From contig NC_092568.1 in the NCBI RefSeq assembly GCF_037975245.1, positions 33,576,501-33,640,500 of the forward strand: a stretch of DNA of 64,000 nt, given 5' to 3'. The stretch is from Apostichopus japonicus. Lineage: Eukaryota; Echinodermata; Holothuroidea; Aspidochirotida; Stichopodidae. Position numbers and translations under genes: made by a program. Of the stretch, positions 12,518-53,704 are shown piece by piece. The notes under the pieces are model-generated. The model saw only the letters and a program-made list of their open reading frames with translations. It was not told where the DNA came from and made no database searches. How positions within the stretch are numbered: the stretch's first letter is position 1; each line of letters begins with the position of its first letter.

Positions 12518-12523
12518 TTTATT
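12518..12523 (-). promoter_or_regulatory. Poly(A) signal of gene A
   Basis: AATAAA on the minus strand begins about 62 nt after the TAG stop of gene A. It is the first canonical hexamer downstream and implies a very short 3' UTR. Cleavage is not confirmed. Confidence 0.6.
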
Positions 12524-12584
12524 GTGGAAGAACTAGTTCATCAAGGTAAAGAGAGGAAGACACACAGAGAAGGGGAAAACAATG

Positions 12585-12970
12585 CTAACCTGTGCAAGTT
12601 TCCCCCGTGTAAGTACCCATGACAAGTTTGCTTGCTCTCCTCTGGAGAAGCATGGCGCCCTCCGATACCACGACGACCCTCCCGCCCTCCTCTGGAGTCA
12701 CCGAATCGAGGAGAAGGTACTTGCGGTTGAGTATCAGAGAACACGAAGAGCATGGAAGTACCAGAGTTGTTATTTTCTTCAGGGACTTCTTTGTAAGTAA
12801 CTTCTGATCGCAAGCTGGACAGAACTTGGGTAGCTTTGAGACTCGAACCGTCACTTCGCCGCTGGAACTATTCGTAGCGATCGGCTTGACGTAGACTTGG
12901 AATGTGGAGCTGCAAGCTGCCTGCTGAATCATACTTTTGGTCTTTTTCTCTTCCGGACAGATGCTGCATC
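12585..12970 (-). CDS. Gene A exon 13: NTR/C345C-like C-terminal module
   Basis: The acceptor is ttgctag|GATGC (phase 1) and the stop is TAG at 12585-12587. The 128 residues hold CSIC at the start, a beta-like segment TFQVYVKP, CPAC in the middle, and LPCSSC followed by a basic residue and KYLLL. That spacing matches netrin-type modules (the G-x-YL strand after the central cysteines). The partner exon is gene B 41969-42339, about one third identical by eye. A weak donor-like CACAG|GTTAGC overlaps the stop. Confidence 0.85.
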
Positions 12971-15900
12971 CTAGCAACGAAAGAAAAGAAGGCAAAATTT
13001 ACTGATTGGATGAGAGATATGAGGAACAGTGGAATAATACAGAGTAAATGGAACAACATTCAAATAGTCTAGCTCGCTATGTCAGAAGGTCTTGGCCATT
13101 TTTCTCATGCTTGAAATACTTTAAGTAGACAAGGCATTAAAAACACATAGCATTGTAACACTGAATACCACAAACCAACAATACATTTTGCACCTGTCCA
13201 TTAATATGGAAGGGAGAAGAGGTAATCTGCCCGATCTCCACGACCAGCGGCGCTAGAATGTTTTTCCAAACAAACTATTGTACGACTGCAATCTCCGACT
13301 GCTGATGTTTCTGGGACTTCTACAATATTTCCATTATCTATCCCCTCTCTCAAATTGCTCATTAAAAACTCATGACAGGGCAAAACCATTGTGCTGATAT
13401 TACAACGGAACGACTTTATCTAGTTTTTTTCTAATCTTTCGGATTTACGAAGGGAGAAGAGGTAATCTGCCCGATCTCCACGACCAGCGGCGCTAGAATG
13501 TTTTTCCAAACAAACTATAGGACGACTGCTGATGTTTCCGGGACTTCTACAATATTTCCATTATCTATCCCCTCTCTCAAATTGCTCATTAAAAACTCAT
13601 GACAGGGCAAAACCATTGTGCTGATATTACAACGGAACGACTTTATCTAGTTTTTTTCTAATCTTTCGGATTTACGAAGGGAGAAGAGGTAATCTGCCCG
13701 ATCTCCACGACCAGCGGCGCTAGAATGTTTTTCCAAACAAACTATAGGACGACTGCTGATGTTTCCGGGACTTCTACAATATTTCCATTATCTATCCCCT
13801 CTCTCAAATTGCTCATTAAAAACTCATGACAGGGCAAAACCATTGTGCTGATATTACAACGGAACGACTTTATCTAGTTTTTTTCTAATCTTTCGGATTT
13901 ACGAAGATGTTCAGACTATTATTGAATCTTTTCAATTGTTTTTTTGGTTTGTTTATCTAGTGATTCATCCATCATATGTAACCTTTGCAACTTAACTAAC
14001 ACATCTTATTAACTTTCTGTACGGATAATAGAAAAAAACAAAATTTGAATACAAAATTGAATACTTACTGTCGCTTGTTGATGTTGTGGTTTCGACATCC
14101 TGACAACCGCCATGACTGAGGCTGAACGTTTGTCCAGGATCCGGACAGCATTCGTCCAGGTCTAGGGTTCCGTCCTCCAGGTCGCGCACAGTGCCCCCAC
14201 AACAAATACTGGTTTCACTGTTGTAAGCTGACCTCTTACAACAACTGTTTTCCCCATTTGTGATTTTCCTTGGCTTGTCCATGCAGCAGATCTTCCTTGA
14301 TTTGTCTATGACCTTCTGGTTGCAACACTCGTGGGTACTCGCCTCGTAGGTGACCCCTCCGCAGGTTGGCAACAACACGTTGTCCCTGCAAACGTGCGTA
14401 GAGCTGCTGAAAATGACCCCGGAACAACAGACTTCGTCGGCATCCAGCAGTCGCACGCCACACCACCTGGGATCGTCTCTGATATTGGTGAACTGCAATC
14501 CATCGCAACTTCCGTTTCCGACGTAGAGCAACCCCGAGCAGCAGGTACCCCCGGGTTGGTCGGACACTGAAGAATCACAAGTGGCGTTCAGATGTTCTCT
14601 TCCTAGTACAAACTCATCGTTCAGGCAGGTGCCCATCTCTGGGCCCATCAGGGTTGTCCCACAACAACGGTGACCCGGGATGGAATCGTGCAGTGTCTTG
14701 GATTTGCAGCAAGTCTTTGACGGGTCGTTGATATCGTATGAAGCAGTCCCACAGCAAGTCTCCCCATCTACGGATTTGGTTATCCTGAAAAAGTAGTGAT
14801 GAAAAAGTTGATAAACATTTCTGTAAACACATTTTTTGAGATGCTGAATATCATTGCTTGTTTCCTTTATTAGAAATTTTAAAAAAAAGATAAAAATAAA
14901 AAGCAAATTCCGATTCCCTTTTTATACCGGCTTTCATGGGGTGAATGGATTTTGCACACATCATGGCTGGTTTGTATTCACTTGAATCCTGCCTGACAAT
15001 GCCACAACAATACAGGGCTTTATATCATTTTTGCAAGTAAAACGTAGGTCAAGTTGCCATGTCTCGGGATCACGTTTTGAAGCAATACATTTCTTTCTTG
15101 TTCACATTTCTAACAAGAGCAATAATTCATCTCAAGTTCCGAAGAGAATGGGGGAGGACGATGGGTTGGGACGGCAGGATGCGGTTAATGTTTGATCCCA
15201 AAAGGACTTGCAACAAGACCAAAATATATCAAAACCTCGCTATCTACATTTCAAATTGCTGAACCCTCCGTTGAATCAAATCTCTCTCCCTCTTCGGCCT
15301 CCCATCTATAAAGCCCTTCCCCAAAACTGAAGATTTATTAAACTTACTTCACGTTTTCACAACACAGTTCTGTGTCAGGATCAAAGACCCCCGAACCGCA
15401 GCATGAACCCTCTGTTTTGTTGAACAGGACGCCATTGCACACCATCTGGTCTTGAGAGTATGCGATACGGCCTTGGCATTCCTTTGGCAGGCCACCAGTG
15501 ACATGGAGTACCCCTTCACAACACACATGGTCGTTCGATGCATTGTCAAACATGAAATTTCCGCAACAGGATGGATCTGGATGGGATGAAATGCCAAAGC
15601 AAAAATATTATAATCAACTGACCAAAGCTATGGGGGGGGGTGAGAAAGGGGGAAGGGGAGTTGTTTTGTGATAAATGTCAAAGAAGAAACAATACATCTG
15701 CTTCATAATCCATTATAATCGACTGACCAAAGTTATAGGGGAGGTGGGTAAAGGAGGTGGTTTGTGATGTATGTGTGGAAAGTATTAACCAATATTCAGT
15801 AACAGTAAACAGTCTTGCCAATGAAGCATGGATTTTCATGGGGTTCATTAGAGGAGGGGTAGGGGGAGGGGGTACTTCTGAATCTCTCCTCCCCCACCGA

Positions 15901-18111
15901 CACCTCTCTAACGTTAGCATTGTACTACCTCATGTTATCTGAAGTATTTTTCTTACCCGGGACATTTTTAAGTTACTTTCATTTGCATTACGTTATAAAC
16001 GCCTCTTTATTCACCAGCACGATTGTCTATAAGTAGTATAAGCAACAAAACTTGATAACATTTGCCATATTTGCTTAATGATAATAAGGTGGAAGAAACC
16101 CCTTAAAATTGTCCGGACCCTTTCTGTAGCGACACAGTAAATACACCGCTATGACCTTTGCTATTTTTTTATTATTATTTCATATCACTTCCAATTTTTT
16201 GGGTGTCTGGGTGTGGGATGATATGATTAATGGTTTCAGTCAGTGTATGCACAGCGTGTGCTCAAACTATAACGATAATATCTGTAAAATAATGTCTGTA
16301 AAATTATGTAGTTATGAAAGATTACATATGGAACCGTATATTTTAGAGCATCACTTTTCAGAGCCTTGCCCCTTTTCCTCATTTTTTGTGTGTACATTTT
16401 TAAAGTGAAACTTGATATAAATACACACCTTGTATGCCTCCTACACACCAGAGTTGGCCGTTGCAACAGATGTGCTCGTCTCTGTCATACCTAGAATAGC
16501 CACCATCTTTGAAATAGCACACCGATTGATTCTCGGCAAATTCCTCTTTTGAAACCACCATGAGATTTTCGTCGTCACATACGTGTGTCCTCGTGTCGAA
16601 CATGTTGCCATGACATCTGGTAATAATGAAAAAAAAGGAGAAAGAAAGAAAGATTAAAGATTATATCTAGATGTTAGAATAAGATATCATCACAAAATCC
16701 AAGAAAAATTTCACAATATTCACCTCTTTTCAAATCAAACATGGTATGAATTCCTCCTGTAGATGCCAAAAATTCTACTGTCAATTTCTGAAATCAAGTC
16801 CAATCGACTTTGCTTCTGTCACAGAAACTTTTAGACCACTATCTGTAGTGTTTACGACCACTGACAAAACCTGTGGTAATATTTACAAATTCCAAGAGTA
16901 GGGTCATCATTTCAAGAAGCTAACACATCCATGGTTATTAACTCAGTATAACCTGCAGGTACTTCAAGGAAAGGGGGAAAGCCGAAAGGAAATTTTGAAT
17001 CCAATTTTTTTTTTTCTTGATTTCAGCCAAATTTTCAGCAATATTTCCTATATCACCATGCATTAAAATCAATAATGGCATCTGGTACATATTCTTTCTT
17101 TAACTCCCCCCCTTGTTTTTTTGTTATAACATCATATAGGTTTAAGGATAGTGAACATGGGAGGGGGAGGGGGGGATTCAAACAAGTCAAAGGGTAAAAA
17201 AAGGTTATTCATAACAGTCCATTAAATAGTGTGATAAAATAATGTATTAGGCCACATTCTATTATTAAAGCATGTAACACACATAGATTAATACTGAAAA
17301 CAGATGAAAGTACATTCTGAAAACAATATGTTCTACTCACGAGTCCGATACAGCTGTTGGAATGTCTACAACATTGTTAGTGGATGGATTACATGACTGG
17401 AAATCTTCAAGGAAGACATCCCCTCCGCAGCACTGTCTCTCACCTCCACAGGCTGACTTCAGATCATACAAGTTTCCATAGCAACAAATCTGTCTCGAGA
17501 GGTCAAACAATTGATTGCCATATTCTGTGAAGCAAAGACCATCATTTGGGTTTCTCGGAATCAGATTGTCTCTGCGGTCGCAAAACTGTTTGGAATGAGA
17601 ATAAGACGGAAATTCAGTTTACACAGCTTGATAGAATCACTTGATACAAGGGTGGGATTGGGGGGGGTGGGGGGAAGAGGGTGCATATACGTTACAACAC
17701 TAAAAAACAGCAACGATGTCATTTAAAATGTTATCGCAGACCCTCCCTCTTTGAACAATCCCTCCCCTCCCACATTATTGTTGCATAGATTTTTACCACA
17801 ATAAATCAAAGTACTAGTGACTATTGTTTTTTAACTTTTTCTGTCAAACAGGTGCATGAACAAAGAATGCATCTATAGTTGTTATGCAGTTACATATACA
17901 AGTGATGTTTAATACATTGAAATCCTGTAACTTACACAACAATTATTGATTAAATTTAAAAAATAGCCCGGCTACTCTTTCCATAGCAGATATATTACAG
18001 ATACGCCCCGGGACAAATTTGCATACAAGAGTCTGGGCTGAAGTTAGTCTGCTCTAATGTTTCCATGTACCCTCTTTGTCATTTTCTGGAACAAAGTTAT
18101 CAACCACAATG

Positions 18112-18170
<59 letters not shown>

Positions 18171-21100
18171 CAGCTGGGCCCTGGTCAGTCTAGTAGGCAT
18201 CTGTCCTTTTTTTCAAAGTTCTGCTCTTAACTGAAATTGGGAACTTACAAATTCCTCAGTATTGAAGGCTTGCGTCCCGCAAATGGCATTATCCCCATCT
18301 CGGCCTTTGATGATCGTGTCCGGGCCAAAGATTTTTTTTTTGCAGAATTCGTTGGCTTCCAGGACCAGTCCTGCGCACAGTCGGTCTGATCCGACTTTAA
18401 TGTCCAGTACTTTCACGGCTGTGTTGGCAAAGAAACGATAGATTTAAAAGAATAAAAAAAAGAATAGCAAAAAAAAAAAAAAAAAAATGGAAAGAAAAAC
18501 ATGACCCAGCCTAGTTTGATCAAAACGATAATGAAGAAAATTTGCAAATATTAAATGATAAGCTATTTTAGTTACAGAATACTTGGTGGGTCTTGCTGCG
18601 ACTGTATATTACCCCACAGTACCTTTATACCTATAACTCAAGGGATCGATATAAATGGTAGGATATGAATGCTCTTTATAATAAGGTCACAGGAGCAAGA
18701 GTACTCGCTCATAAACAGAGTGAAAGTCACAAATAAATCGACCCCCTGACCTCTCTTCTCATCATCATGCTTAACTTGAAATTAAACAGAGTTTTTTACT
18801 GATTGTATTCATCATCATAATCACTGTTACGTACCTCGGGACCAGTCCTCCCGTGTGTACACGTAACAGGTCTGGACTGTGGGATCGTGGACCAACGTGT
18901 CACAACATTCCATCGCAGGGGATGTCTTTCTCTGGATCTGGTCGGAACAGCACAACTCTGTCTGATCGTCAAAGAGCTCTACAAAGGAAAACGATTTTTT
19001 ATTTTCATTGGACATTCTGGAGAGAGTGAATTGCAAGAAGGAGAGAAACGACAAAAATAACGGAAGAAAGACCAGAATGTTTCTCATATCGTCCGACTGT
19101 AGAGGGCTGTCCGAAAATTTCTTGTAAAAAGCGGTTTAGATGTTAATAAAGGAGTGAGATAGAAAAAAAAGAAGAAGTATGAAACGATTCCTAGATGCTC
19201 CTTGAACTAACAATGCATACACCATTCATAATACATCCTATCATAGAATGCAGGGAGAGAAAGGTGGGGGGGGAAGGGGGTCATTCCTTCTTTTGGAACA
19301 TCTCAGTCATTATAGCCTTGACACAGGTGCACTTTATTCTCAAGAATAGCTTGAACTAAAACCTTGCACAGAGCTTTCTTTTTCTCTGGCATAACAGGGG
19401 CAGTTTTGATGGGTGGAAAGAATTGCTATGTTAACTAAAATATACAATGGACTACCTGAATGCTATCAAATATATAGCAGAATTGTTGCCTCTCCTCCTT
19501 CCCACCCCCTGCCCTCCACACTCCTACAATTCCTCACCTACCAACACCTCATCCCCCAATCACCACATCTTCTATTAAAAGCAAAAAAAGGACACATATC
19601 AAGAAGAAGAAGAAATAAAAGAGTTTTGTAATCAGTGATCATATAACAGCACAGCAAAGGAGAATAAAAAAATAAATAAATAAAAAAAACCAAAAAGCAA
19701 ACAATGTATGACTGACTAACCAGTTCCACAACATTGTGTTCTGGATGTTTCTGTGATTGTGTGAAGCTTTCCTTGGCACAGTCTCTTCTGTGAGTTTAAG
19801 AAAGCAGTGGTGCCTGCACATTCGGTGATGCCCGGTATCTCAGGTATTCCAGGGTTCAATTTCCCACCGCAACATGAAGTCGTCTCCCTGTTGTACGGCA
19901 AAGAGCCACAGAAGGCTCCGGATGCTGGAGTGAAATAGAATCAAAATGGAAACATTCTTAATCAATACTCTAGAGGCAAGTAAAGAGAGGCTGCACAATC
20001 AAATAAGGCAGAAAGTGTCTGCTTTGCTATACATATATAACTCTGCCTTTCTCTTCTTTATACCTACGGAGTACGGAACACAGCCGAATGGTGCCAAGTT
20101 CACGACAATATACACTGCAATGACTGCACTACCCCATCGTGCTCCCCATTAGGCAATTGACATGTCATTAACCTTGCAAGTATATTAGCACAAATGTAGT
20201 AGTAGGTCATCCAGTTCTTGTACAGAATGCAGGCTACTAGACCATCTAACCCCCCTCACACTTCACACTTCACTTCACACTTCACTTGCACACTTCACTC
20301 TACTCTCCCTCCACCCCCACCCAATTCCTCCTGGCTCATGCAAGTACGTGTTGTCTTAAGGTATTTATGGACCCTTTAATAAAAGTTTTGTTTCTTTCAC
20401 AAAAATTTTCTCTCTTCCTTATTTGACATCAAGAGAGTGAAACTACCTGCTAGTATCCGTGCTGGAGTTTTATCTTGAGGCTTTCGATGGAAAGCTTTTA
20501 ATGTAATCAAATCGAAATATATATTACTTTTCGAGAGGAAACATTTACTTGGTAACAGAAGAGCCATTTGCTTCAAATAGGCGCCTGAACAAATTTTGAT
20601 GCAAATGTGGGTTCGTCTGACCCTTTCAAGAAATGAAATGGAATGATCGAAGGCTCCCGTACAGCACTGGGGGTAATATTAACACGATAGAACAAGGATA
20701 TATATATACAAGATGCTGGAACCAATACCAACATCTGTTTATGACAAATCATGGTTTTGATGTTCCATGAGACATTGAAGAGTTTCAAAAATGGCGTTAC
20801 AGAGCCACCCATCGGGCCACCAAATCGGCTTCTCCCACAAACACATGCGGCAACTTGGTGTTCAGTGTAAAATGACTGTTTCGCAGGCTGATATTATATT
20901 ATTATTATTATTGTTATTGTTATTATTATTATTACTAACCAGAGCCTACTTCTTGACACAAGGTATTGAAAGTTTCCCACCAGCAACACACCGAATAGAA
21001 AGGATTGATGGCAGAACTTCCACATATCTCGGTTTTGCCATCTTCAATTGGTTGCAGATTCCAATGTCCATTCGATGATCGAATTTCAATGTGTGTCCTT

Positions 21101-21460
21101 GTGTCGTAGGGCTGAATAGAAGGGTGTTGTCCACATACCATACTTTCTTCTTGTGCATAAAGTTCCTGATGGAAATATAAACAAACTATGTTGTGGTTAT
21201 ACTGATAGATTTTCCCAGAAATGGGAGGGGGAACTGGGAAGGGAGGGTTGGGGAAGAGGGCTGTTTTTTTTCATGCAACTTAGTGCTTATAAATATGCAA
21301 TATTAAACTTGTGGATTAGTTGGCCACTGGTATTAAAGTGTTGCATACACAAAATGGTAAGTTGTTACTTTGTACTTTAGTTTGAGATGAACAACAAATG
21401 TGATATTGAACTGGTTCAAACATCAAGGCCATTTCTGTATATGTTTATTTTAATTATGCA

Positions 21461-21505
<45 letters not shown>

Positions 21506-24500
21506 CTTGCTTTGTTTTGTTAACAGATGTAATTCAACTGCATCCTTCCAGCTTGTTCACTTGTCTTAGTTTGTATGAACTAAGGCCTTGACACCAAGGC
21601 CAACAAATTCCAAAGAAAAATAGAAAATGGTACACAATATTCATAGATGTATGATATCAAATGGAAAATGAAACCAAATTCCTTTGTAAAAATGAATCAT
21701 ACATACATTGAAGCAGCATAGGTGAGTGTCTTCTGAATACGGTGAACCAGCGCAGCAGTGAAGACCTCTGGGTTGGTCCGCATCGTTGGTGATCTCTCTA
21801 CAGCATTCCTCTGCACTGAGAGGTAAAGTCCCATTGTTTGTCTTGCAGCAGAATTCAGAGGAAGAATCATAGCTCTGGTCCAAGCAGCATGCATCCCCTG
21901 TAAACAATCAACGACGAAAAAAAAAGTCCAAAGAAATGAATGTTTTTTCAAATGTCCTTCTAGATTTAGAACTGCAGTTTGATAGGTAGCTGCAGTTATA
22001 TTTCCTCCTCCCAAGCGCAATTCAAGTTTGACTTTTAGTATATAAGATTCTGGGCCTTGCATAGGGCTGCTCAGTATATAAGGTACCCCCCCACCCATTC
22101 TGGGCCATACATAGGACTGCTCTGTATATAAGATAACCGCCCCCCCAATTCTGGGCCATGCATAGGGCTGCTCGGTAAATAAGGTACCCCCCTATTCTGG
22201 GCCATACATAGGACTGCTCTGTATATAAGATAACCCCTTCCCCCATTCCCATGCAATGGGCTGCGCAGTGTATATAAGGTACCCCCCAAGTTGAAAACTA
22301 ATATCTGTCAGTTTAGTATATAATTAATGGAAGGATATGGTCAGAGGAAACTTCCAGACACGACGTAATACTAAATATTTATGAGAACCCCAGCAATAGA
22401 TTTAAGCTGTAGGTAAGACGCTAGATATCAATTATTTGCTTTCACATACTCTGAATGACATGAAAACCAATCTAATTTGCATTGATGAATATTCATAGCA
22501 TCACAAATCACACCTACCGTCTGCCTTTGGAAAGACGTTGCCCATACATTCCATATCTGTACTCGAATTGTAAGGTCGACCACTCTGGGAACATTTCATG
22601 TCACTGTCTACATCCAACAGTACCTCTCCACAGGGACTGGATTTTGTACGATCGTACATGACATCGTTATCTGTGATAAACATTGCGTCCAGAAAGTATA
22701 TTATCGCATAATGTAGAGCTAATTACTATTCCTCTCTCTGACAAAGATGATTTCAATATTTTTTTTCTACAACATTTTTCCAACTCTCTTACCAAGACAT
22801 CAACTTAAGGTTACATACATATATAACATTTTTGAAATCTTATCTCAACAAATGCCGTAATGAGAGATATTGGCAAAGCTGTAGCACACACATATGTAAT
22901 GTATGAACGATGGATCGTAGACGGAAATGTCTTTTATTGCTTCAAACGAGCATAAATTTAATTGTGACATAAAATATAGGTTTTTATTTGACCAGTTTTA
23001 AAAGAAAGGAGTACTGGACAGCCATGGCTGGAGTGCCCATCTAGACTGGCATAGTGGTGGATATGGCAAAATACTGTACAGTACTTAGTGGGTATGGTGC
23101 TAACCCACTCAGTACTGCCTGTCTTTACCACTACCCTGTTCCCTGTATGGTCCCGAACTTTATTACAGGGAGACGTTTAGGGGAGAGAACCACCAGCATT
23201 TTATAACTATGAGCGATGCAGGAAGAGGATACCGACTATAATGTCACTAATACACAAGCACAACCTCCTATTTGCACAGTAACAGAGTAAATCAATGGGG
23301 ACTTTTCCATTGAGTTTATAACTGTATGTGACAGAAATCACACACTATACAGCCAATTCACTTGTCGGCGTGAAATCAGACTTGATTTAGTCGATTTTAA
23401 GAACTAATAATTAACAAATATTATATTGTTTTTATCACTTTATGTTATATCTTGAGCAAAAAGGAAAAAGTTAAATCCCCCCCCCAAAAAAAACTATTTC
23501 TTGAAAAGTTTGACAACAAATGTAACTTCCTAAAGCTCGCAAACAGTGATGTCCAGATCTAACAAAAACTACATTCTCTTACAAAGGCTCTCTAGTGGAT
23601 CAGCAGTTTGCTAACAGTTTTATTTTATTTTGAAAAACTACTTACGGCATCCATATCGATGGTCTAGATGGTTGACTACCTTTCCCTTACAGCATAGGTC
23701 GGTCCCCGTATCGAACCATAGTTCGCTGCTCGTTGCATCATCATGGCACCTCTGCTCATTTGCATCTCCTGAGAATAAGAACACACATATATATTTGTTT
23801 TTTACTACAGTACATAATTGAAGCACCTAAAATGATTATGAAAAGAGGGCCTTAATTTTCACCCTTACAGGACACATTTTTCTGGCAGTTGACTATTTTT
23901 AATGCAAAACTACATTAAATTCGGATTGCTTTGTAAACTTAGATTCCCCCCCCCCCTCTTTCTTCACCACCCAATATGCAAAATGATAAATTGGTACTGT
24001 ATGGTCCTTCATAACATGAGCAGATATTGAAATAATACAAAAATAGTTGTGGTAGACAGGCCTATATGATCCACCTAATGGGGGATTTTTTTTTGGCTGC
24101 AATTTAAGCTGGTGTTTTATTCACCAATCCTACACATCTCTGCTACTGTATAGTGTACTGTAGGTTGTTCTTTGTTATTTTGCTTCCCTTTTGGGACACC
24201 AAACTTGCTGTTCAAAACAAACAAAACGTAAAGAACTAGTCCCATTCGGGGAACCAGAAAACACCCTTAAAAATTTCCAATACTTTTATAATTCGCTTCC
24301 CTTCCCCCGACCCATCCCTCGCCCTCCCCAGTCTACACTGTTCAAATTAAAGAGTCTTAAATGTCAGATTTATAACGAGATTAACCAGGAATTCTGAAGG
24401 CAATGAATAATTCACAATAAATATATCATTTTTGGGTAACTTTGATGCAAAGGTATTATCTTGCTGACTGGGAAGTGACAGTTACTGGATATACTGTGGT

Positions 24501-27500: not shown

Positions 27501-28334
27501 AAAACCTAAAGATTAAGCGAATAGAAAGGATCCTAGCTTACCCTGGATCAACTTAACTTATATTACATACCCTTGTAAGACGGTCTTGCAATGATTGGAC
27601 AAAATTAGTGACTGGATTTCATCGTAAACATTCGCCTGACCTAACAGCAGTAGCACTTGCCACAAAGTGTGCAGTAGTTCTGGATTTGTGCAATACAGAG
27701 TACTGACGTCAAGCTACTTCGCAATCACAGGTTACGCTGTTTGCACCTCGTTCATTGTACATTGATAAGTGGAATTTCCCTATTGCGCAAGAGGCCTCGA
27801 GAAGGCTACCCTTTCCCTCCTCAATGCCAAAACGCTACTCTATGCCATTGCAAACACACCATACGTACACAAAAGATAATCAAAGAAAGTAAAACGTAGT
27901 GCGTTAAAATAATGTTCATCCTTTGATGAACAAGCGTTTGTCAAAGTACATTTTACAAGAAACATTATTTACAAAATTCAAAAACCAGATATTTGTACTA
28001 TCTTAAAGACAATATATTTTGATATGAAAGAGATCAGGCCGTAGATAATGTATGGACTCACCAAAATCTATTACAAGCAATAATAATAATAACACTTTCA
28101 CTATATGGCCTCTTGCTGCAGTCTTGAAACAACTCTTTGACAGGTGGAGATTCATTCGTAAAGTTATCTTGAGTTTTTTGTTTAAAAATGTTGGCCAAAA
28201 TATTTATATCCTTACTCGTCCCCTTCAATTTCAGTTATGAATTATTATCGAAGTTCGTGAAAGGAGCACTTCCCTTAATAGGAACTTCCCATGCAGGTAA
28301 TAAAGGTCCCTTATTACCTGAATGGGAAGTTCCC

Positions 28335-28426
<92 letters not shown>

Positions 28427-36592: not shown

Positions 36593-36595
<3 letters not shown>

Positions 36596-38985: not shown

Positions 38986-38993
38986 TAAACAGT

Positions 38994-41775: not shown

Positions 41776-41968
41776 ATAAATAAATATATATATACATATA
41801 TTTTTTGTTCTGTTTTGTGTGTGACTGCAAAGTCTTAAAATGTTAAATAACTAATATTACTGAAAAATGCGAGAGATACACCGTTCAAGAAGGGATTAAG
41901 CAACCCCTCGCCCCTCCCCTCCACACCCATCTGTGGAAACCTCTTCTAATGTATAGTGTAGAGGCAAC

Positions 41969-42339
41969 TCACTGTTCAAAGACATTTCTTACTATCTTCC
42001 CATTTTTCGGTGGCAACAGAACATCGTTACTTTGCAAATGGAATTGTCCATTTTCTTGGAGCATGCCGGAAGTGAGGAGAACATATTTTCCTTGCCTTTG
42101 AAAGGTCTCGCAGTTACAGCCCTCGGGTAGCACCATCGTCTTTATCTTCCGTAACTGTTTCTTGCTGAGGACGGCCGGGCAGTCAGGGCAATCTCGAAAC
42201 AGAGGAGTCACTTTGACTCCAATTGTATTCTGGTCAGATAACGGGCGCGTGATTCTGATGTTAAAATGGTGCTGAGACTGGCCGGCTAACTCTTCGACTG
42301 CTCTCTTCGACAGAATGGTATCTTGGCATAGTGAACATT
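41969..42339 (-). CDS. Gene B exon 12: NTR/C345C-like C-terminal module
   Basis: The acceptor is ctccacag|AATGTTC (phase 1) and the stop is TGA at 41969-41971. It encodes CSLC, a beta-like HFNIRITRPL segment, CPDCP, a conserved KKQLRKIKTMVLP stretch (KKSLKKITTLVLP in gene A), then CNC and GKYVLLTSG. The spacing fits a netrin-type module. A strong donor-like ACA|GTGAGT overlaps the stop codon. Confidence 0.85.
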
Positions 42340-45300
42340 CTGTGGAGAGATATGCAAAAATGAGAAGGAAAATATCACGTCTGCATCTGAAATGGACCAT
42401 TGTTGATGTCAAGCTTTCCAGAGTGATTCCCAAGCTTTGATGCCCAACACCCAGCATCTTTCATGGGACTAAGCCCCGATCCATCAGACCGCCACACGTC
42501 AGAATCCGTGCAAAGAATGATCTATGAAAGCTAGCTAGAACTATGGACTTGATATTTAGATAAAACTGATTAATTGACCTATGTGAGCGAGCTCCAAAAA
42601 ATATTGTATGTAAATTTAACGGAGTCCATAAACAATCCAGTGACCCGCCGAAACTGTTCTCTTACCCTAAAGTGGGTCGCACTTCATTATTTTACAGAAC
42701 ACATGAGATTTGAAGGATGTCTTTACCTTCTGTCTCTGGTTGGACTTGTCCATCCTGACACTGCATGGTTTGAAGGTCAAAGTACTGACCATCTCTGCAA
42801 CAACCCTTTGCGTCCCGGGCTTCGCGGATGTCCGCCACTTGCTTGATTCTCTCGCCACAACAGACAGCTGTGAGATTGTTGTAAGCCGTGGAACCGCAGC
42901 AGCTGTTTTCATTTTCCTGAGTCAGGTTCTGGACTCTGCCATTGCAGCAGACTTGTCGGCCATCCTCGATGACCGTGTCATCGCAGCAGATGTGAGTCAA
43001 CGGGTTGTAAAGTTCATCTCCGCATGCCACGCTGGAGTAGAGTTTCTTCTCTTCAATTCCTTCGCTGAGGTGGTCATCTGCCCGAGCTTCACGGGTTCCA
43101 GGGTGGTGTCTGGCAAACCGAAACCCTTCGCATGCTCCAAATTCTCCAGAGTACAAGATACCTCCGCAACAGGTACCCAGTTGGTTGTCAAAGTCGGTGG
43201 CGTCGCAAGTCCTACTGAGTAGTGCCCCGCTCACCTGGTAGTGTTCATCGAGGCAGCGATTCTCCGGGAATTGCTCAACCAGCGAAGACCCGCAGCATCC
43301 TTGGCCGGGTACCATCTCATGGAGGGTACCTTGGCAGCATATCTGGTCAGTACTACCGCCATGATACTTTGTGGTACCGCAACAAACTTCGCCTTGGTCT
43401 TCCTTTGGCAGGCTAATATGCAAAAAGTAAATTGGGACAAAAAAAGAGATAGTTTTCACAACAGCTCAGGGGAACATTTCAATTCTGAAAAACAGACGAG
43501 AACAAACATTTTTATGGTATCTCTTAGGCTGCAGGTGTACAAGGTGAGGTGAGGAAAGGGCATGGTTGTGGGGGAGAAAAAAATTGGGACTTCTTTAAGA
43601 GAAATGGGTCAAGAGGAGGGAATTATAAACCTGGGACCTTTACTACCTAAAAGGAACTTGTTCTAGCATTTTCCCTCTCGTATGTCTCGTCACCGAGAAC
43701 CCTTGACGAAAAATATTTTCACCCTCCTGCCTCCATTTCTATGTTTTTTTTTAAATTGGGCTTACCGGACACCATCGCAACACAAGTGAGTGCTGTCATC
43801 GAAAATGCCGTCACCGCAGCATTCGCCATCTGCTCTCAGGTAAATGGTATCGCCGCACAACTGTTCGTCAGCTGCCACTGCTACTTGGCCAATGCAAGTT
43901 TTGGCTACTCCTCCTGTGAAATGCCAGATGCCCTCGCAGCAAACAGCTTCTCTAGCGTTTGAATCGAACACTCTTCCACGACAACACTGTGGATCTACAA
44001 ATGAAAAAAATGGAAATTTATAACTTTCCTCTCTCTACATATTTTGTGTGTGAGTGGATGGGACAAGGTCATCCTGGAAAATTTGCAACATTAATAACAC
44101 AGACTATTTCAGAAAATGAGAAAGAGAAAGGTCACGTTTCTAAAGGGTCGGTTGAGCTGCACCATCTGTTGAAGTATAATAACCCTAGCTATGATAAAAA
44201 TGGGGGCAGCATTTCAAAACTTACCTTCCATCCCTGCTATGGAATATACATGGTCGTCACAGCATTTATGTGTGCTGTCGCTGATGGGTTTCCCTTGGCA
44301 GCAAGTTTGGCCAAAGGCGCTGAGCTGATTATTCTCCTGACACATCTCGACAGTAAGCTCTGTGATGGTTTTACTGTAAACATGGTCTTTAATACAGACT
44401 TCCGTGACTGTGTTATAGAGGGACAAACCGCATCTGAAACATCAATAAAAAATTTAAAAAATGATAACGTTGGTAAAGGGGATCTTCCAGTGGCAGATAT
44501 ATTCGGACATTTGTAAGACGAAAAACAAAAGAAGAAAAGACACAAACAGAAAGATCTCACAAAGCTGATTGAAAAACCTTATTTCAATATTTTTGTTTTT
44601 ACTACCTTTTAGACAAACAAACCTTATCTATAAATAACAAAAAAGTTCTGAGCAGCATGATTTTGTACTTGCAATGTCACTTGTAGAAATAGCAACAAGA
44701 TCGATTCAAAAAAACAGTTGAAAGTTATTAACAAACCTCTCAGCAAATTCCGAAGGTATTGGGAAAACACGATCCTGAAAGCAGCTTTGTTCCTCTGGGT
44801 GGTGAACAGCATGGCCACAGCAATGTCTTTCCAATCCCCAAGGGTTAGATCTTTCGTGCACACGTATGTTACTGCAGCATATCTCGGTCCGAGTGTCGTA
44901 GACTTTCCTTGCACCTTCGCAGTATTCGTGGTGTGGTTTCTTCACTACCAGGGCGCCACCTTTGCATATCTATAGGGGGGAAAATAAAGATAAAAGAATG
45001 AAGATTAAAAAACTAGATTAAACAAGTCAGATAATGTATCTTTATACTTTCAAATGTTTAGTACATGCAACAGAAGTTACCAAAACAATATGGAGAAAAA
45101 AAAAGAAAAAAAAATGAAGTGTGGCAGAACTAGGAACAACAATTTGTGTTTTTTTTTTTTCATTTTGCAAACTGCTTGGTATGTTTATAACTTGAACTAA
45201 GACTTGTTCATGGATACAACTTGTGGAGAAAAAAAGTCTAAACTGATACTTACATAGGTATCACTGTTGTAAGTAAGAATTCTCTCGATCGTAAATGGCC

Positions 45301-48300
45301 AGTTATCACTTCGCAGCGAGCAGTACGAATCTTCGAGCACGTCCCTATGGACAATTTTACCTTCGACGCAAAAATCCCTGCTCGGCAAGATGGCGGTACC
45401 GCAGCAAATGTCATCCGGACCCTTCCTCTTAAGGTTCTCCCCACCACAGCAGATTCTCTCATCAGTATTTATAATCTCTGGAATAAAGATAAGACAAATC
45501 AAATAATGGAAGAGAATAAAGACAACATACATTTTTAAGGACATCATTAAAGACACAGGCGGGATAAAAAACCCCAAAAAACAAAGAAATCCCCAACACA
45601 GTTTAACACATCCTTTTTGTGCGATGACTTGATAAAAAAACTACAATTAAGAATGGAAAATGTTGTAGAGATTGATCCTTTTTGAGGTGCCACTGTTAGG
45701 TGAGGTTCAATATCCCTCTGTGGAACATTATTACTTTAATGACAGACAAACATTCTTCCTGCCTTAAAAGAACCTTGTTTTGACAACTTCTTGATTTCAG
45801 ATGATCACAAGGTCAATTATAATCCAAAAGCTTGGAGTTTGTAATCCCAACCAAACATTTACTTACTGGGTTATTCTTCGACGACTGTTGGTGGGCAAAT
45901 ACAGATATGTCTTGTAACCTAAAAGTTTAACATTTTACCATTTAATAGCCACTGGCTAAAAAATAAAGGGACAGTGTTTCTAACATCTCGTGGCTTAAAG
46001 CGAATTCTGACTGGCATTTTCCTGAATCAGTTTTACTGTACAGGCCTTTTAGAGCAGAACAAATACTAATTGCTGATAAAAAATAAGCAGTAATACAAGG
46101 AATATGTTAGGTATGGAAAATTATGACTATTGTTTTGCCTTTAATACCATGAGTTAAAGATCTTTAATGTCTACCGGCAGAAAATTGAAATTCCCATCCC
46201 CATTTTTTTTCTTTTGTCTACTGGCAAAATCAAACGGCAGAATCCACTGCCATATGTAGCCGGTAGATATCCCTGCATTTCAACACCTCTTTTCCTTTTT
46301 GCTTTCTTTTTTTTAGTAATGTCCAGAGAGATCGGTCTTACCGTTCCCGCAACAAGCATCGGAGGGATGTTTATCTCTAACTTGACCATTCTGGCAGGAT
46401 ATTTTGTCTGAGGTCCAGTAACTCTGCTGACCGCTGCATTCTTGGATGCCTGGGATCTCTGGTACTCCTTCTGTGATTACTCCTCTGCAACAGCTGGCAT
46501 TGTGTCGACTGTAAGGCATGTGATTGCAGCAGGCACCATCAGCTGCCGAAGGGAATAAGTCAATAATTTGATCATCCGAAAATGTTACGAGGCGAGGACG
46601 CCATTTTATAGAACACTGTTTCTTTAAAATAGAAATATCATGGAAATTTCTGAACGCTTTAACAGATGTGCAATGATTTTAGTTCCTTGCCATTTTTTTT
46701 TAACCATCTGATCTACTTTGACGAAAGAAACAAAAGAACTTCTGATTACCTGACCCGACATCGTGAACTTGTCCATAACAGCAAACTTCTCGGTTGGGGT
46801 TTAGTGTCTTTGAACCACAAACGCTGTTTCGTCCCAGTTCGATTGCCTCCTTTCCGACCCCATGGACCCAGACGTGAGTCGTGATATCGTACAAAACGTC
46901 GCCACGACACCTCAGATTCGATTCCTTAGCGATGACTCCCTAAAAAATTGACAGAAAACAGGATTCTATTTACCAGTTCAGTTTAGAGTACATTGAACGC
47001 TACAGCTAACGAGTCTATTAGCCAATCAAGGATTATTCTACAGATCATAACATTATAACTACAAATTATACTGATAATATATAATAATTTAGAAAATTAG
47101 ACAAACATTTAACAAAAACACAAAGTGAAAGGCTGTTTTCTTATTGTAGGCCCATTTACTTCAGATTCCAAACACTAAGATAATACATAGAATTTAAGGG
47201 GAGAGAAAGCCTACTAAATCCCTTTTGGGAACTACTTGCCCCCTTGCTCATGGAAACGGTTACTTCATACCAATTTTCACAAACATTTTCTCTCACCTCC
47301 TCTCTCAACCCTCCCTCTATATTCTCTTCTGATTTTGACCATAAAATGAAAAAAGATGAATTGAATACTCCTTCCACATTTAAAACTTCCTCACAAGCTG
47401 GTTAAGATAGGAATCTCTGTCTGAGTCAGTAAGGACAATGTTTGGGCACTCTGAAATTTCCCAGATCAATTTCTACATTAACCAGTTTAACAAGAACATT
47501 AAGAAAAGTTCCTCACCGAGTCACAGCACATTTCGTTATTTACATGATAGAGTTCGATGTTTCCGTCGGACAGGCGACAGGTACCGTAAAGCCAAGCATC
47601 TTCTTGTTCCGGTACCTGGTGGACTACTCCATTCACACAAATTTCAGTAAGTGTGTTGTATACTGCATGCCTTCCGCAGCAGTTGCCGACACCATGTATC
47701 ACCTGACCGTAACAGCATGTGTCAGTGGTGGGGTCAATGTAATCTTCTCCACAACACTGCAAGCCTAAATAGAATCCAAAACCAAATTAGAATGAACACA
47801 ACCACTGAAACAGGATTTTTGTAAAATTGCTATTTTTATCTTTGTCATGTGATCCCATTTGTCTCTCCTATTTATAAAGATTTACTACAGAATTCAAAAA
47901 GTGATCAAATTCTGTAAAAACCAAAAAGACAAAGTACATCTCGTTTACATTCTTCTAGACTATATTAAATAGTGAAAATGATGAGAAATCGTTTAAAGTG
48001 CATTTGTCACACTGTAATATATGCATCCTCTACCCATACAATACCAACCCCTCCCCCCCACACCCCCCACACACCCTTATCAATGTAGAAACAACTTACT
48101 GTCACTTCTTGGGAAAGGGTGATCATTGCAGCACTCCGTTTCTATCCGTTTGTGGATCCTATTGTTACAGACTATGTCTTCATTTACCGAGATCAGAAAC
48201 TGGCCAGATGGCACTGAAAGGGAAAAAATAAAAATACATCAAAACGTTGGTTACTATATGACCAAACTAGTGATACATAACTGTTATAGATGAAAACTAC

Positions 48301-51300
48301 CTCAAAGGGACATACAGTTTCTGTTGTTGCTGTTTCTATTGTTGTTGTTGTTGTTTTTATTTATTTATTTTGTTTAGAATCTCTCTTGACACTATTTCAA
48401 CCAGTAAGAACAGAGGATGAAGAGAATGCTAAGGGAAAGAACAGAAAAAGACACCAAGCAAATATAATTCATTCATTTACAATTACACAAGCATCATTTC
48501 TAACAAAACTCTCTTTTCCTATCAATTAAAGATGATGACAAAAGCTGGGAGACCGCAGTAACAATAAAGTAAAAAGAAAACGGTGAGGCAGTCCATTTTT
48601 TTCAATGTAAAATTAAAATGTAAAATTGTCATACTATTTTGTCAAAGTTTCACATTTCAGACCACTTTAAAATATCTTAACATGTTCCTTTCATTCATTG
48701 AATCTTATTGTTCATTGTAAAGATCCTTTAAAAAGGAAGCAAACTGTCTGTCTCTATATGTTCATTTCATTATTGGACTTAATAAAATAATAATATGATA
48801 TTTGGAATGATGATCAACAAAGTTGTCACTAATTAATGTAATATTAACATGCAAAATACAATATCTCAACTAAGACTAGCTTCATATGACATGGTAAACA
48901 CACAATAATTGATTTGTCAAATAACTTGACGGAATGAATGAAAATAACATTTTGATTGACAATTGACTTCTGTGCACTTTTAGACACTAAAAAATCCATA
49001 CATGCCGAATCATTTAAGATGACCCGGTGAATACTTATCAAATATATACATAAGCCAATGCCAGATTCATCACATATCAGAGGTAATTTATGAGGAAATC
49101 TTACCTTCCACACAAGCATATTCTTCATTGGAGTTATCAAAGACTTTTCCTTGACAACAGAGTTCTCGCCATCCGGTCTTGTACTCTTTGTCGTTCCAAT
49201 AGTCATAACAATTATCATTCCCGTAACCTACAATAAAAAGATGGAGAATACATGTGTAACGCACAATGAATTACGCTGTGAAAAAGTAACGAAATTCTGC
49301 TGGTGAATGCAATCCATGCATAATTGTTGCTTACATGGAGGAGGGTGTGGGAGGGGGGGAGGGGAGGGGCAAGGGATGAGACATGATTGAAAATGGGTAC
49401 TTGAAGTAATATAATATATAATATAATATGGGAATGAAGTAATATATGCTCAAGATTTGTCCAGTACTTTGTTTTTAAAAACAAACTATTGTTTTCCTTT
49501 CCTTACAAGGAGCATGATGCCCATATTGAACACCAGAGCATTGAATGGCTTAGGATCTCACCAACATTTGTAGCTTTGTTGATCATTTGCAACTACTAAC
49601 TATTAATTGTTAGTCATTAATAGTTGACGCGAAGCGTACAAGAAAATTTCGGCAAAAAATGCTTCCCAGATCGCTGGAAATGGCACTTCCCAGGCATTGT
49701 AAATTGCATCTAAGCATTTTCTATTTTGAAATTACTAGCAATATCATAAAAAACATACAAAAAAAATATGCTCAAGGGGGGGTGGTCGCCCCCTTTGCCC
49801 CCCCCCCTGGCTATGCGCTTGACCCTATTAGCATTTCATGGTTTTACTACACAATACTGAATGCTACCTAACTGAATGTATCTCACTTTCTAGATACATG
49901 TGTAAATACAATACGGTCATGTATTCATACTGCCAACAATATGGAACAATTTGTAGCATAAGTACAGTAATGTTAGTATATGAAATTGTGAGTTCACCTA
50001 AGGTAGTGACTGTATTATACTAGTTTGACACTGCAATTACAATTTCATATTCATATAAGTTATATTGATTACAGTAGATGTATTGAGACATTGTGAACTT
50101 TAAAAAGTTCCTTTTGCTTGCAATAATAAGAAGGGAACAGTTAGTCTATAAAAATAAGCCTAAGATTTTTATATGGTGAATTAAAAAATGTTATCCCCCC
50201 ACCCCCAAAAAATAAAGTACTCATATTCAGTTTATAAATTGCTGTATTCAGACAACAAGACTGGGTAGTTTGATTCCATAAAGCAGTAGGCCTAGGCTCA
50301 GATTGTGGTATTTGGTACCACCTATGTAAGTACTCTGAACTTCTTGGTTTGCCATGGTTTGAGGAACTATCATACATCAAACTCAACTTCTACACTGCTA
50401 CCCAGTAACACTAACAGCCTAGTCTGGGCCTCGCCTATGGTGCAAACTCCCAAAAATACTCTCTTCTAAAGGACAGACGGATGAGCATAAGTTTGGCAAT
50501 GGCAGTTTGACGATTTAATGTGTAAGTTAAGTACTAACTTACATATGCTTTACCTGTAAGCTGTAGGCAAATTGGTTACGCCTATGCTTTTGTTGCCTAA
50601 TAAGTAATAGGCATATTCCAGCTTTGTCTAACTCTAAGTTACGAACGAGCACAGTGCGGACCGATAACTAAGCCTAGGGCCTAGGCCGGTAGTTCGGCTG
50701 TGGTTGTTTTTCTTCCTTTTCTTAGCTTTCAACCATAGTCACCAACATGCGAGCTGAACGTAATGTCTTTTTCTTACTCTCCCCTCACGACATACTTTTA
50801 GGTTACAGTTAAGTTACCACGACTAAACATAACTCGGCTAGATTTTCTGCAATGTTCCGCCAGTTAATATTTTCATGGAAGTACACTGCCATGGCGTTTA
50901 CAGTAGTATTCATGAAGTTCCAACTTCCGAGTGTTCGGGAACAATGGTTGACCTTGCTCTACGCAAACATGCGTCTTCGTTGTTTCATAGTTCTATATGC
51001 TAACGCATCCCTGTGTGCCTTGATTGCGAAATTTTTGAGGTCAATTGTCACTATTATCTTGGTGACCTAAACAGACAAAGCTATTATCAAGTTTCACTAT
51101 ATGCTGATAAACATCATATATTGCGTACCTGGTCGACCGTCAAGTTGCTTCACTACATTCTAAAGCAGCGCTTTCAAAATTTTCTTCATTGAGACCACCC
51201 CCCCCCCCCTCTTAGCCATCCAGCTAAGCTGCGACCACCTTCCAGAAATATTTTTGTGATGGCTGTCCTGGGGGAGGAGGGCTAAGTGTCCCCCCCCCTT

Positions 51301-53639
51301 GTGATTTTTTTGCTGATATAAGTGGCTAATTAGATGCAAAATGGTGCTACCATATGCATCATTTTATGTATATTAAAGTGCATGTTTTCTTTGTAGGAAA
51401 AGTAGCCTAAAGTTAATAAATTACATTTGATGAAATAAAAATTTCCGAAATGATAATCAATCAATATCATATCAATTTTTTTTAAATAAAGCAATTACCC
51501 ACAATGTCGAGATAACAAATAACTTTTGACAAATAAAGGACATAAGATACAGTTTGTAATGTAAACATCGATAAATATAACCGGAAATGTAGCTATTGTT
51601 TAACAAACATGATATAAAAAAATTGTTGGCTGATCGCGGCGAAAATTGCCCCCCCCCCCTTCACTTTGGGAACCTCTGTACTAAAGGAAGTTGTAAAAGT
51701 GAGGAAGTGCAAGTGTTTGCCGCCCACGCCTTATTTCCGACATACTGTGTATTAACATTAATTGTCTTCGGATTAGGCTATATCCCTAGGAACAATCACT
51801 GATCCAATAAATACAAAACACCGATAAGCTTAAGTCGAACTCTGTGTACAAAGTATGGAACGGTTTCAAGCAAGTTTTCAAGCACCAGAATGTGCCCTTA
51901 ATTTTTTTTGAACCTATATAATCAGTCTTCCCGCACAAACAGTAATTTAAATGACAGACAAATTCCCGGCATGAAGTGTTGAACAATTATTGAACTCTCA
52001 AGAACGGTCATTTTGATCGTTAAGGCCTGGTACAAACTGCCTATATAATTACAGGCGTGAAAATTTCTAGTTTCACAACTCACCAAATGTAATAGTACTG
52101 AGATATATTGTCGTGCTGCAACTATAGTTTACTATGTACGGTATGTTAAAGATAGAATGTTGCACTAATGTGATGTACCAAATCCATGCATGACACTTGT
52201 AACATGCATATGCATATCCCGATTGTGCTATAGTTTTTTTCTAAAAAAAAAAAAGGTCTTAATGCATAAGAGTTTCAGAAAGACTATATATCAAGTTTAC
52301 ACGATCTAGATGCGTAATTTTCAACTGGGAATCAGCGATGAACCTTCAGGCATAGCTCACCAGATGAATGATAAGAATATAAGATCATACAGTGTACACC
52401 ACTAAAGGGAGTTATAGCTATACCGAATGAGGCAAGGTGGTAATATACCAGTGCCTGTAGTGTATATTTGACGTCGTTTCACCGGGACGGATTTATCGAC
52501 GACGCAATGCTTGGTCTATAATTCCGAGAAAAAAAAATCGACTTCTATATGGATATATCCGAGAATGCAACATTAAAAGTCGATCAATACTTGTACAATT
52601 CTTATTATGATGTTTAGAGAGGGCCTCTGAATCTTTGCCTATACCTCAAACTATAATATGCCGAAAGACAGTACTTTTGCATCGACGTATATCAGTCGAT
52701 CGCCGGTTTTCCCAGCTTGGCTCAAACCAATTTTTGCCGTATATATAATTGAATTTCAAAAGATATGTTCTCGTTCATTCATGTTTTGAACGGAAACTTG
52801 ACTTTGACCTCAGTTCCATCGAAAAATTGACAATCATACTAGTAATTTTCGAGTAATATGCACTTTTGAAATAGAATGTAGGGACGTGTAGCTAAATAAA
52901 CCGAAACAATATTTAGATTGAGTTGTTTGTCACAATTAATGATATAAAGGTTATTTTGTAGGCTTATCCCCTCTGTAAGAGACTAAGTTAGTATGATAGG
53001 ATGATATATCATCCAATGTATCCCTATATATAGATTGATAGTATCTATAGATTGACTGTATTGGTGTAAAGGATGTATATAAAAGCAACAAAAAAAGTCT
53101 AAGTTTGAAAATAATTGAAAGCCAAGCAATAAAACCATCACGGCTGGTCAAATATTAAGATACAGTTGTTTTACCCAATTAAAATTTTAGTCATGTTCGA
53201 TCAAGTTTATGAAAACGTATTCAATGCTGTGAAAACTGTGTCTGATATACTTTATGGTCATACATCTATTTTCTGATCCAAATGGGGTAAAAAGAACACC
53301 TTGAACTATTGCTAAGTATATACAATATAACTATATAGGTCTCCCATATTTACTCTAAGTTGGAAAGAGTTAACTTCAGATGCAATGCCAACTATAATCC
53401 TTATAGAATACATTATGATGCTAATATTTTGTTAAATTTTTATATATATATTAGTGAGAAATGACAAACATTTCTCGGTCTTAATACTTCTTTACTTTTC
53501 TCTTCGATCGTATAAAATGTTTGAAAAAAAAAAAAAAAAACTATAGCAAGATTGAAAGAAATAGTAAATCCTTACCTTCTACTCTTCCGTGATTTAAAAA
53601 GTAACCCAGAAGGGTAAGCGCTGCTAAAAGTTTATTCAT
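41969..53639 (-). CDS. Gene B: secreted galaxin-repeat protein with C-terminal NTR-like module (12 exons)
   Basis: Coding exons in order: 53639-53576, 49227-49105, 48213-48100, 47764-47517, 46939-46750, 46542-46342, 45477-45254, 44969-44737, 44433-44225, 43994-43766, 43412-42727 and 42339-41969. Intron phases run 1,1,1,0,1,1,0,2,1,2,1, and the total is 2892 nt (963 residues). A 21-residue signal segment is followed by an array of galaxin-type repeats with about 29 CC dipeptides, then about 123 residues of an NTR/C345C-like module. There is no later membrane span, so the product is predicted to be secreted. The exon order, phases and module order match gene A, so the two are tandem duplicates. 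The divergence is large (only short blocks identical), so the duplication is old. Expression and function cannot be read from the sequence. No canonical AATAAA was seen within 250 bp after the stop. Confidence 0.88.
42727..43412 (-). CDS. Gene B exon 11: large galaxin-repeat exon
   Basis: The acceptor is catattag|CCTGCC (phase 2) and the donor is ACAGAAG|GTAAAG (phase 1). It spans 686 nt with nine CC pairs, such as EVCCGTTKYHGGSTDQICC and NSCCGSTAYNNLTAVCCGE. A charged linker of about 30 residues (TREARADD...EEKK) interrupts the array and could be a protease-sensitive hinge. Gene A lacks this linker. Confidence 0.93.
43766..43994 (-). CDS. Gene B exon 10: galaxin repeats
   Basis: The acceptor is tttgtag|ATCC (phase 1) and the donor is GTCCG|GTAAGC (phase 2). 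It is 229 nt, the same length as its partner in gene A. It includes GECCGDGIFDDSTHLCCDG, a near-ideal repeat, and AVCCEGIWHFTGGVAKTC (VCCEGVLHVTGGLPKEC in gene A). Confidence 0.93.
44225..44433 (-). CDS. Gene B exon 9: galaxin repeats
   Basis: The acceptor is tgtttcag|ATGCGG (phase 2) and the donor is ATGGAAG|GTAAGT (phase 1). It spans 209 nt. It encodes SLYNTVTEVCIKD, FGQTCCQGKPISD and THKCCDDHVY. The partner is gene A exon 10. Confidence 0.92.
44737..44969 (-). CDS. Gene B exon 8: galaxin repeats
   Basis: The acceptor is ccctatag|ATATGC (phase 0) and the donor is GAGAG|GTTTGT (phase 2, a weak donor). It spans 233 nt. It encodes KVYDTRTEICCSN and LERHCCGHAVHHPEEQSC. The partner is gene A exon 9 (17341-17585), with the same phases. 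Confidence 0.88.
45254..45477 (-). CDS. Gene B exon 7 (equals gene A exons 7 and 8)
   Basis: The acceptor is attccag|AGATT (phase 1) and the donor is ACCTAT|GTAAGT (phase 0). It spans 224 nt. It encodes ERICCGGENL, DDICCGTAILPSRDFC and a tail with a single Cys (SYCSLRSD). It spans the region that gene A splits by an additional intron, and is about 30 codons shorter. Confidence 0.9.
46342..46542 (-). CDS. Gene B exon 6: galaxin repeats
   Basis: The acceptor is ttcggcag|CTGATG (phase 1) and the donor is GGAACG|GTAAGA (phase 1). It spans 201 nt. It encodes MPYSRHNASCCRG, EGVPEIPGIQEC and DACCGN. The partner is gene A exon 6 (204 nt). Confidence 0.92.
46750..46939 (-). CDS. Gene B exon 5: galaxin repeats with an RGD tripeptide
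   Basis: The acceptor is tttttag|GGAGTC (phase 0) and the donor is GGTCAG|GTAATC (phase 1). It spans 190 nt. It encodes LRCRGDVLYDITTHV and SVCGSKTLNPNREVCCYG. The RGD is not present at the matching place in gene A exon 5. Confidence 0.9.
47517..47764 (-). CDS. Gene B exon 4: galaxin repeats
   Basis: The acceptor is ctatttag|GCTTGC (phase 1) and the donor is GACTCG|GTGAGG (phase 0). It spans 248 nt. It encodes QCCGEDYIDPTTDTCCYG and NCCGRHAVYNTLTEIC, two textbook repeats. The partner is gene A exon 4. Confidence 0.93.
48100..48213 (-). CDS. Gene B exon 3
   Basis: The acceptor is cctttcag|TGCCATC (phase 1) and the donor is GTGACA|GTAAGT (phase 1). It spans 114 nt and has no in-frame ATG. It encodes about 38 residues with VCNNR and ECCND. 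It is shorter and more diverged than its gene A partner (153 nt). Confidence 0.85.
49105..49227 (-). CDS. Gene B exon 2: start of mature protein
   Basis: The acceptor is ttattgtag|GTTACG (phase 1) and the donor is GTGGAAG|GTAAGA (phase 1). At 123 nt it is identical in length to gene A exon 2. It encodes CYDYWNDKEYKTGW, then RELCCQGKVFDNSNEEYAC. Confidence 0.9.
49624..49821 (+). mobile_element. 5'-truncated hAT-type MITE in intron 1 of gene B
   Basis: It matches the right two thirds of the 10269-10554 element (gcgaagcgtacaagaaaatt, cttcccagatcgctggaaat) and ends CTGGCTATGCGCTTG after a G-rich and C-rich pair. The left end and its duplication are missing. Confidence 0.75.
49822..53575. other. 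Intron 1 of gene B (bulk)
   Basis: No internal exon was recognised. It carries the hAT-type element 51166-51678, a poly(A)-like run at 53523-53540 near the exon 1 donor, and ordinary AT-rich sequence. Confidence 0.6.
51166..51678 (+). mobile_element. hAT-type element of a second subfamily
   Basis: The left end CAGCGCTTTCAAAA and the right end TTTGGGAACCTCTG form the classic hAT-type imperfect inverted repeat (CAGnGnTTnCnAAA). The flanks ttctaaag (51158-51165) and tactaaag (51679-51686) are an 8-bp duplication with one mismatch. C-runs lie inside both ends (51187-51201 and 51649-51660). No transposase. Confidence 0.82.
53576..53639 (-). CDS. Gene B exon 1: signal peptide
   Basis: ATG at 53639, 21 codons plus 1 nt, donor AGAAG|GTAAGG (phase 1). 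The peptide has an N-terminal Lys then LLAALTLLGYFL, a typical signal core. The frame continues into exon 2. Confidence 0.87.
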
Positions 53640-53696
53640 TGTTGTCTCTCACTTTGCGTATTCTAAGTTTACTGGGTCTGCTCAAACCAGACGGTC

Positions 53697-53704
53697 TTTT
53701 TATA
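53697..53704 (-). promoter_or_regulatory. TATA box of gene B
   Basis: TATAAAAA on the minus strand. An initiator-like cccAgt has its A at about 53673, 31 bp downstream, implying a 5' UTR of about 34 nt. The arrangement parallels gene A. Confidence 0.55.

Follow-up and report, generated by a model that had tools for sequence, protein, structure and literature searches.

Two co-directional cysteine-rich genes lie on the minus strand of a 64-kb window of the Apostichopus japonicus genome (contig NC_092568.1; the window is the whole stretch of DNA analysed, and all coordinates refer to it). We call the upstream gene A and the downstream gene, which follows after 15.5 kb, B. To judge from their sequences, they appear to form a genuine tandem pair of the galaxin-related kind, with products of a predicted mass of 105-108 kDa that end in an NTR-type tail, a feature that is well supported in gene B and reached through homology in gene A.

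The gene models were obtained by a simple splice-and-coding search and then extended through direct inspection of the DNA and comparison of A with B; the splice sites were read from the DNA. The coding region of gene A (41969..53639, minus strand) comprises 12 exons (53639-53576, 49227-49105, 48213-48100, 47764-47517, 46939-46750, 46542-46342, 45477-45254, 44969-44737, 44433-44225, 43994-43766, 43412-42727 and 42339-41969) and encodes 963 residues in a frame that is open across 11 GT-AG junctions, as had been stated in the original prediction. Gene B (12585..26487, minus strand) comprises 13 exons (a candidate first exon at 26487-26433, followed by 23768-23646, 22670-22518, 21897-21707, 21165-20940, 19924-19721, 18978-18835, 18418-18249, 17585-17341, 16616-16429, 15576-15348, 14784-14069 and 12970-12585), and its frame remains open across 12 GT-AG junctions; the uninterrupted frame predicted for it was recovered, and the predicted length of 1011 residues became 1009 with the first exon chosen here. 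The outer limits previously given for the pair correspond to the TATA box of gene A (53704) and to the end of a polyadenylation-type AATAAA motif 3′ of gene B (12518..12523, minus strand). The last intron of gene B also contains a tandem array (13296-13906) with a 227-bp unit, 2.7 copies and 99% matches.

The assignment to the galaxins is carried by the long repeat arrays, which are encoded by exons 2-11 of gene A (42727..49227, minus strand) and exons 2-12 of gene B (14069..23768, minus strand). The Pfam family Galaxin_repeat (PF24748; curated cut-off 28) matched the whole proteins with E=2.6e-75 and 251.1 bits for A, in 8 stretches with the best at residues 171-297, and with E=1.8e-67 and 225.7 bits for B, in 9 stretches with the best at residues 220-355. 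When open reading frames (ORFs) of single exons picked for their CC pairs were tested, all eight matched the family and seven of them exceeded its curated cut-off. Cysteine makes up 9.3 and 9.7% of the two proteins, and CC pairs are far more frequent than in 10000 shuffles of each (29 in A versus a shuffle mean of 7.3 and a maximum of 19; 28 in B versus 8.4 and 21). Galaxin-type CC repeats, originally noticed in both genes from the sequence alone, are thus confirmed by a family match far above the cut-off and by CC pairs beyond all shuffles. Both arrays are acidic, with an isoelectric point (pI) of 4.87 in A and 4.61 in B, and neither protein contains an RXRR or RX(K/R)R motif. Two further matches were set aside: a weak Pfam match of gene A to IGFL (15.6 bits against a cut-off of 25), and the one locus (L001) retrieved when IMG/VR was scanned with gene A's longest galaxin exon. 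The latter, a 51-residue match within a 328-residue ORF that has the short sequence EFGACEGF in common with the exon, was judged to be due to chance.

Blastp aligns the two proteins over almost their full length (E=2.6e-116, 28.7% identity across 1048 columns). Of the 912 positions aligned by MAFFT, 301 are identical, and cysteines of gene B stand opposite 80 of the 88 cysteines in gene A. Each of the 11 introns of gene A has a same-phase counterpart in gene B, ten of them at the identical alignment column and the eleventh 11 columns off, although these shared positions are not wholly independent of the modelling because the comparison with A guided the gene B model. Gene B has one additional intron, in phase 1. 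Exon 45477-45254 of gene A corresponds to exons 18978-18835 and 18418-18249 of gene B, with ~30 extra residues in B, and on these models an intron was gained or lost and the repeat length changed as well. A strict one-to-one pairing of exons, as initially proposed, was therefore slightly wrong (12 exons versus 13); the agreement of intron phases and the exon pairs of equal length, 123 and 229 nt, were found in both genes as described, and the tandem paralogy itself was upheld by the blastp match and by the common introns and cysteines. An identity of 29% indicates that the duplication is old, and A and B are accordingly modelled as full-length tandem paralogues, anciently duplicated. A third galaxin copy was not found when both proteins were searched against the window by tblastn with E values up to 10; the weak extra matches were located at 15290-15174 (E 3.7, in an intron of gene B) and at 34555-34620 on the plus strand (E 2.6).

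At their N-termini, both proteins begin with a hydrophobic-looking stretch following an ATG with an upstream in-frame stop, and signal peptides are plausible in both. Exon 1 of gene A (53576..53639, minus strand) encodes the putative signal peptide MNKLLAALTLLGYFLNHGRVE, with the in-frame stop 4 codons upstream and a TATAAA (53704) 65 nt 5′ of the ATG. For gene B, there are two candidate first exons. The one used in the model (26433..26487, minus strand) encodes the putative signal peptide MCSKTLLATVIISFSSVF, with an in-frame stop 10 codons upstream and a TATATA (26543) 56 nt 5′ of the ATG; the alternative (28062..28155, minus strand) encodes MNLHLSKSCFKTAARGHIVKVLLLLLLVIDF, with an in-frame stop 17 codons upstream and a TATAAA (28208) 53 nt 5′ of the ATG, and by arithmetic its use would give a protein of 1022 residues. 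The donor sequence TTTTG/gtgagt and the phase at the exon end are common to both candidates, with 33 of 39 bases identical across the donor. Their flanks align with a local score of 48, against a maximum of 31 in 1000 shuffles, and in a minus-strand scan with this flank the other exon was the best site after the query itself. Because the two candidates are related across the donor and equal in phase, the comparison suggests that the promoter and signal-peptide exon of gene B were duplicated. The best 19-residue hydropathy at the N-terminus was 1.47 for B and 0.82 for A; the latter value is low and speaks against a signal peptide there, so that the signal peptide of A in particular is a putative reading of the sequence. 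Past the N-terminus, the maximum 19-residue hydropathy was 0.96 in A and 1.22 in B, which we took as insufficient for a membrane span.

The C-terminal tails are 30% identical to each other. The predicted NTR domain of gene B (12588..12968, minus strand; pI 9.30) has the six NTR cysteines and a CPAC pair, and the NTR-like domain of gene A (41972..42337, minus strand; pI 9.02) lacks NTR cysteines 3 and 6. In pairwise comparisons, the tail of gene B scored highest with SFRP1 (z 6.5), PCOLCE (z 5.6) and SFRP2 (z 5.3), none of 400 shuffles reaching the score in any of the three cases, and it had a z of at least 3.7 with five of eight known NTR-type domains. As a control, 25 galaxin windows compared with five NTR domains gave z values up to 2.6, versus 3.9-6.3 for the gene B tail on the same five. 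An NTR profile run over the 1697 ORFs of at least 25 residues in the window placed the last exon of gene B first and as the sole significant match (E=0.0011; next, 1.3). With gene B included in the profile, the tail of gene A ranked second, below significance (E 0.5). For the joint A and B tail, the hhalign score of 26.5 exceeded those of all 200 column shuffles (maximum 23.5).

Several results weigh against an NTR assignment. The hhalign probability of the joint tail was 25.6%; the gene B tail scored weakly against C5 (z 2.0), C3 (z 1.6) and TIMP1 (z 0.0); and the gene A tail stood out against only one of the eight domains, SFRP1, with a z of 3.7 that 4 of 400 shuffles reached. The Pfam family NTR (PF01759) matched neither tail at E values up to 10, a range in which the search filters drop most matches above ~0.1, while it found seven of eight vertebrate NTR-type domains used as controls, the eighth, TIMP1, matching PF00965. 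Searches of the PDB with phmmer and with a two-sequence profile yielded no NTR domain for either tail. An AlphaFold model of the gene B tail, a helix followed by strands, was of low confidence (predicted local distance difference test score, pLDDT, 51.7), and no NTR domain was among the 50 matches listed for it by VIA-align or the 50 listed by Foldseek. The best PDB profile matches of the tails, a protein named sr312 (E 0.07) and chains of RPB9 (E 0.18-0.2), were taken as chance, and zinc-ribbon-like Pfam matches of the gene B tail (best E 0.057) remained under their cut-offs. These points leave room for the C-terminal exon to encode an unrelated basic cysteine-containing domain; we regard this as unlikely in view of the pairwise z values of gene B, the galaxin-window control, the cysteine pattern and the ranking by the profile. 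The NTR-like end originally predicted for both genes is hence supported in B on these four grounds, and in A, which lacks two of the cysteines, the tail is assigned to NTR mainly through its homology to B. Profile searches, which had been suggested as a check on both modules, recovered the galaxin repeats with PF24748; for the NTR module they were negative with PF01759 and positive with the NTR profile for B only.

Taken as a whole, each gene would encode a probably secreted protein that starts with a putative signal peptide, continues with a long, acidic galaxin-type di-cysteine array and closes with a basic C-terminal NTR domain. The NTR tails of PCOLCE, netrins and SFRPs bind heparan-sulphate proteoglycans, collagen or growth factors. 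In the proteins described here, the galaxin repeats may fold into a stiff, disulfide-rich extracellular scaffold, which the basic tail would dock to other matrix parts, namely to ligands of these three kinds. On this view, the products of A and B would serve the extracellular matrix or cuticle as structural or adaptor proteins. The paralogues would have come to differ in their NTR cysteines and perhaps also in expression, given the two candidate promoters and two signal-peptide exons of gene B. We lean towards this reading of a matrix or cuticle pair in which a galaxin scaffold is anchored through its NTR tail.

Other functions were considered, in part from excerpts of the papers cited. Skeleton-forming cells could instead secrete the proteins, which would become occluded within a calcified skeleton, as happens with coral galaxin. 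The proteins share the repeat family PF24748 with coral galaxin, the acidity of their arrays can be set beside the pI of 4.52 and 4.53 of two mature coral galaxins (PMC2726143), and their cysteine content points the same way. However, the RXRR motif that marks galaxin sensu stricto (PMC6824150) is absent from A and B, non-calcifying animals also have galaxin-like proteins (PMC4878875), and the galaxin of Galaxea is described as lacking calcium binding (PMC2726143), so a biomineral role seems rather improbable to us. A defence role in epithelia or haemocytes, in which the proteins would hold bacteria in check, is to us a similarly minor possibility: the squid galaxin EsGal1 is antimicrobial (reviewed in PMC5216023) and a galaxin is among the mussel haemocyte genes regulated on Vibrio challenge (PMC6697025), but no defence-specific feature was found in the sequences, and the basic NTR-like tail suits anchoring at least equally well. 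Finally, activity could reside in the NTR domain, which would regulate Wnt/BMP signalling or proteases outside the cell while being displayed on a galaxin carrier. That SFRP1 was the best pairwise match of both tails would fit such a regulator, which we nevertheless consider quite unlikely, given that neither protein has a frizzled-type domain (Pfam, E up to 0.1), that gene A is without two of the six NTR cysteines, and that similarity to TIMP1 was low (z 0.0 for B and 1.7 for A).

The window has 111 stop-to-stop ORFs with a minimum length of 80 residues. Of these, 27 that lie outside the coding exons were scanned with Pfam, and none of the 27 reached a curated cut-off; an ORF opposite gene A and an ORF covering its last exon likewise had no Pfam match above the cut-off. 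ARAGORN detected no tRNA gene. The one Rfam tRNA match, at 28453-28526, is located inside a repeat with further copies near 5414-5629 and 41673-41801, and this repeat of three copies in the window is probably a tRNA-derived short interspersed nuclear element. A dispersed repeat family (26826-27135, 60591-60892, 10269-10554 and 49620-49821) occurs in both orientations at ~79-86% identity, and pieces related to it lie near 9158-9601 and 38749-38852.

PCOLCE, netrin-1 and the SFRPs have the C-terminal NTR domain in common with the predicted pair, and their six-cysteine pattern is matched by gene B. Their N-terminal parts are CUB domains in PCOLCE, laminin/EGF modules in netrin-1 and a frizzled domain in the SFRPs, not galaxin repeats. 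Usherin carries laminin and fibronectin modules. Neither module was found in A or B (Pfam, E up to 0.1); usherin resembles them in its many paired cysteines and has been called galaxin-similar (PMC4878875, PMC6824150). The coral galaxin and Amgalaxin-like proteins of Galaxea and Acropora likewise combine a signal peptide, which is putative in A and B, with tandem di-cysteine repeats, and coral galaxin and Amgalaxin-like 2 are acidic, as are the arrays of A and B (PMC2726143). The three Acropora proteins have 338, 582 and 660 residues, and the available text of that paper does not mention NTR for them, whereas A and B have 963 and 1009 residues, a basic NTR-like tail and no RXRR. Outside corals, sponges, polychaetes, molluscs and sea urchins have galaxin-related proteins (PMC6824150), and galaxin-named proteins are described from squid (EsGal1), Riftia, mussel, sea urchin and fish (PMC6824150, PMC5216023, PMC2175520, PMC6697025, PMC6771007); the excerpts of these papers mention no NTR tail, and as the proteins were compared by description only, some of them may have one. 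The function of coral galaxin has been described as unknown (PMC4878875). No galaxin-NTR fusion is described in the available parts of the open-licence literature on galaxin with NTR, netrin or C345C (PMC7853314, PMC6697025, PMC6771007, PMC9100110), in one of which C345C appears in a figure legend within a section on agrin-like proteins (PMC7853314), or in those of the other open-licence galaxin papers cited here and of PMC4890752. This is consistent with, and does not prove, a previously undescribed architecture. As galaxin-related paralogues, A and B look ordinary; it is their predicted tail that is unusual.

It is possible, though we would not call it probable, that A and B are the first members of an old and so far undescribed family of animal matrix proteins, galaxin scaffolds that are targeted by an NTR tail. 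One paralogue would keep all NTR cysteines, the other would have dropped two that together would make a single bond, and gene B would alternate between its signal-peptide exons via duplicated promoters. If true, such a family would link the galaxins to the netrin, PCOLCE and SFRP group of matrix and signalling proteins. The ligands of NTR domains are known, so the tail could reveal the attachment partners of galaxin arrays, and the fusion would offer a testable handle on what these arrays attach to. It would also suit a view of galaxins as general matrix proteins, recruited by corals for their skeletons.

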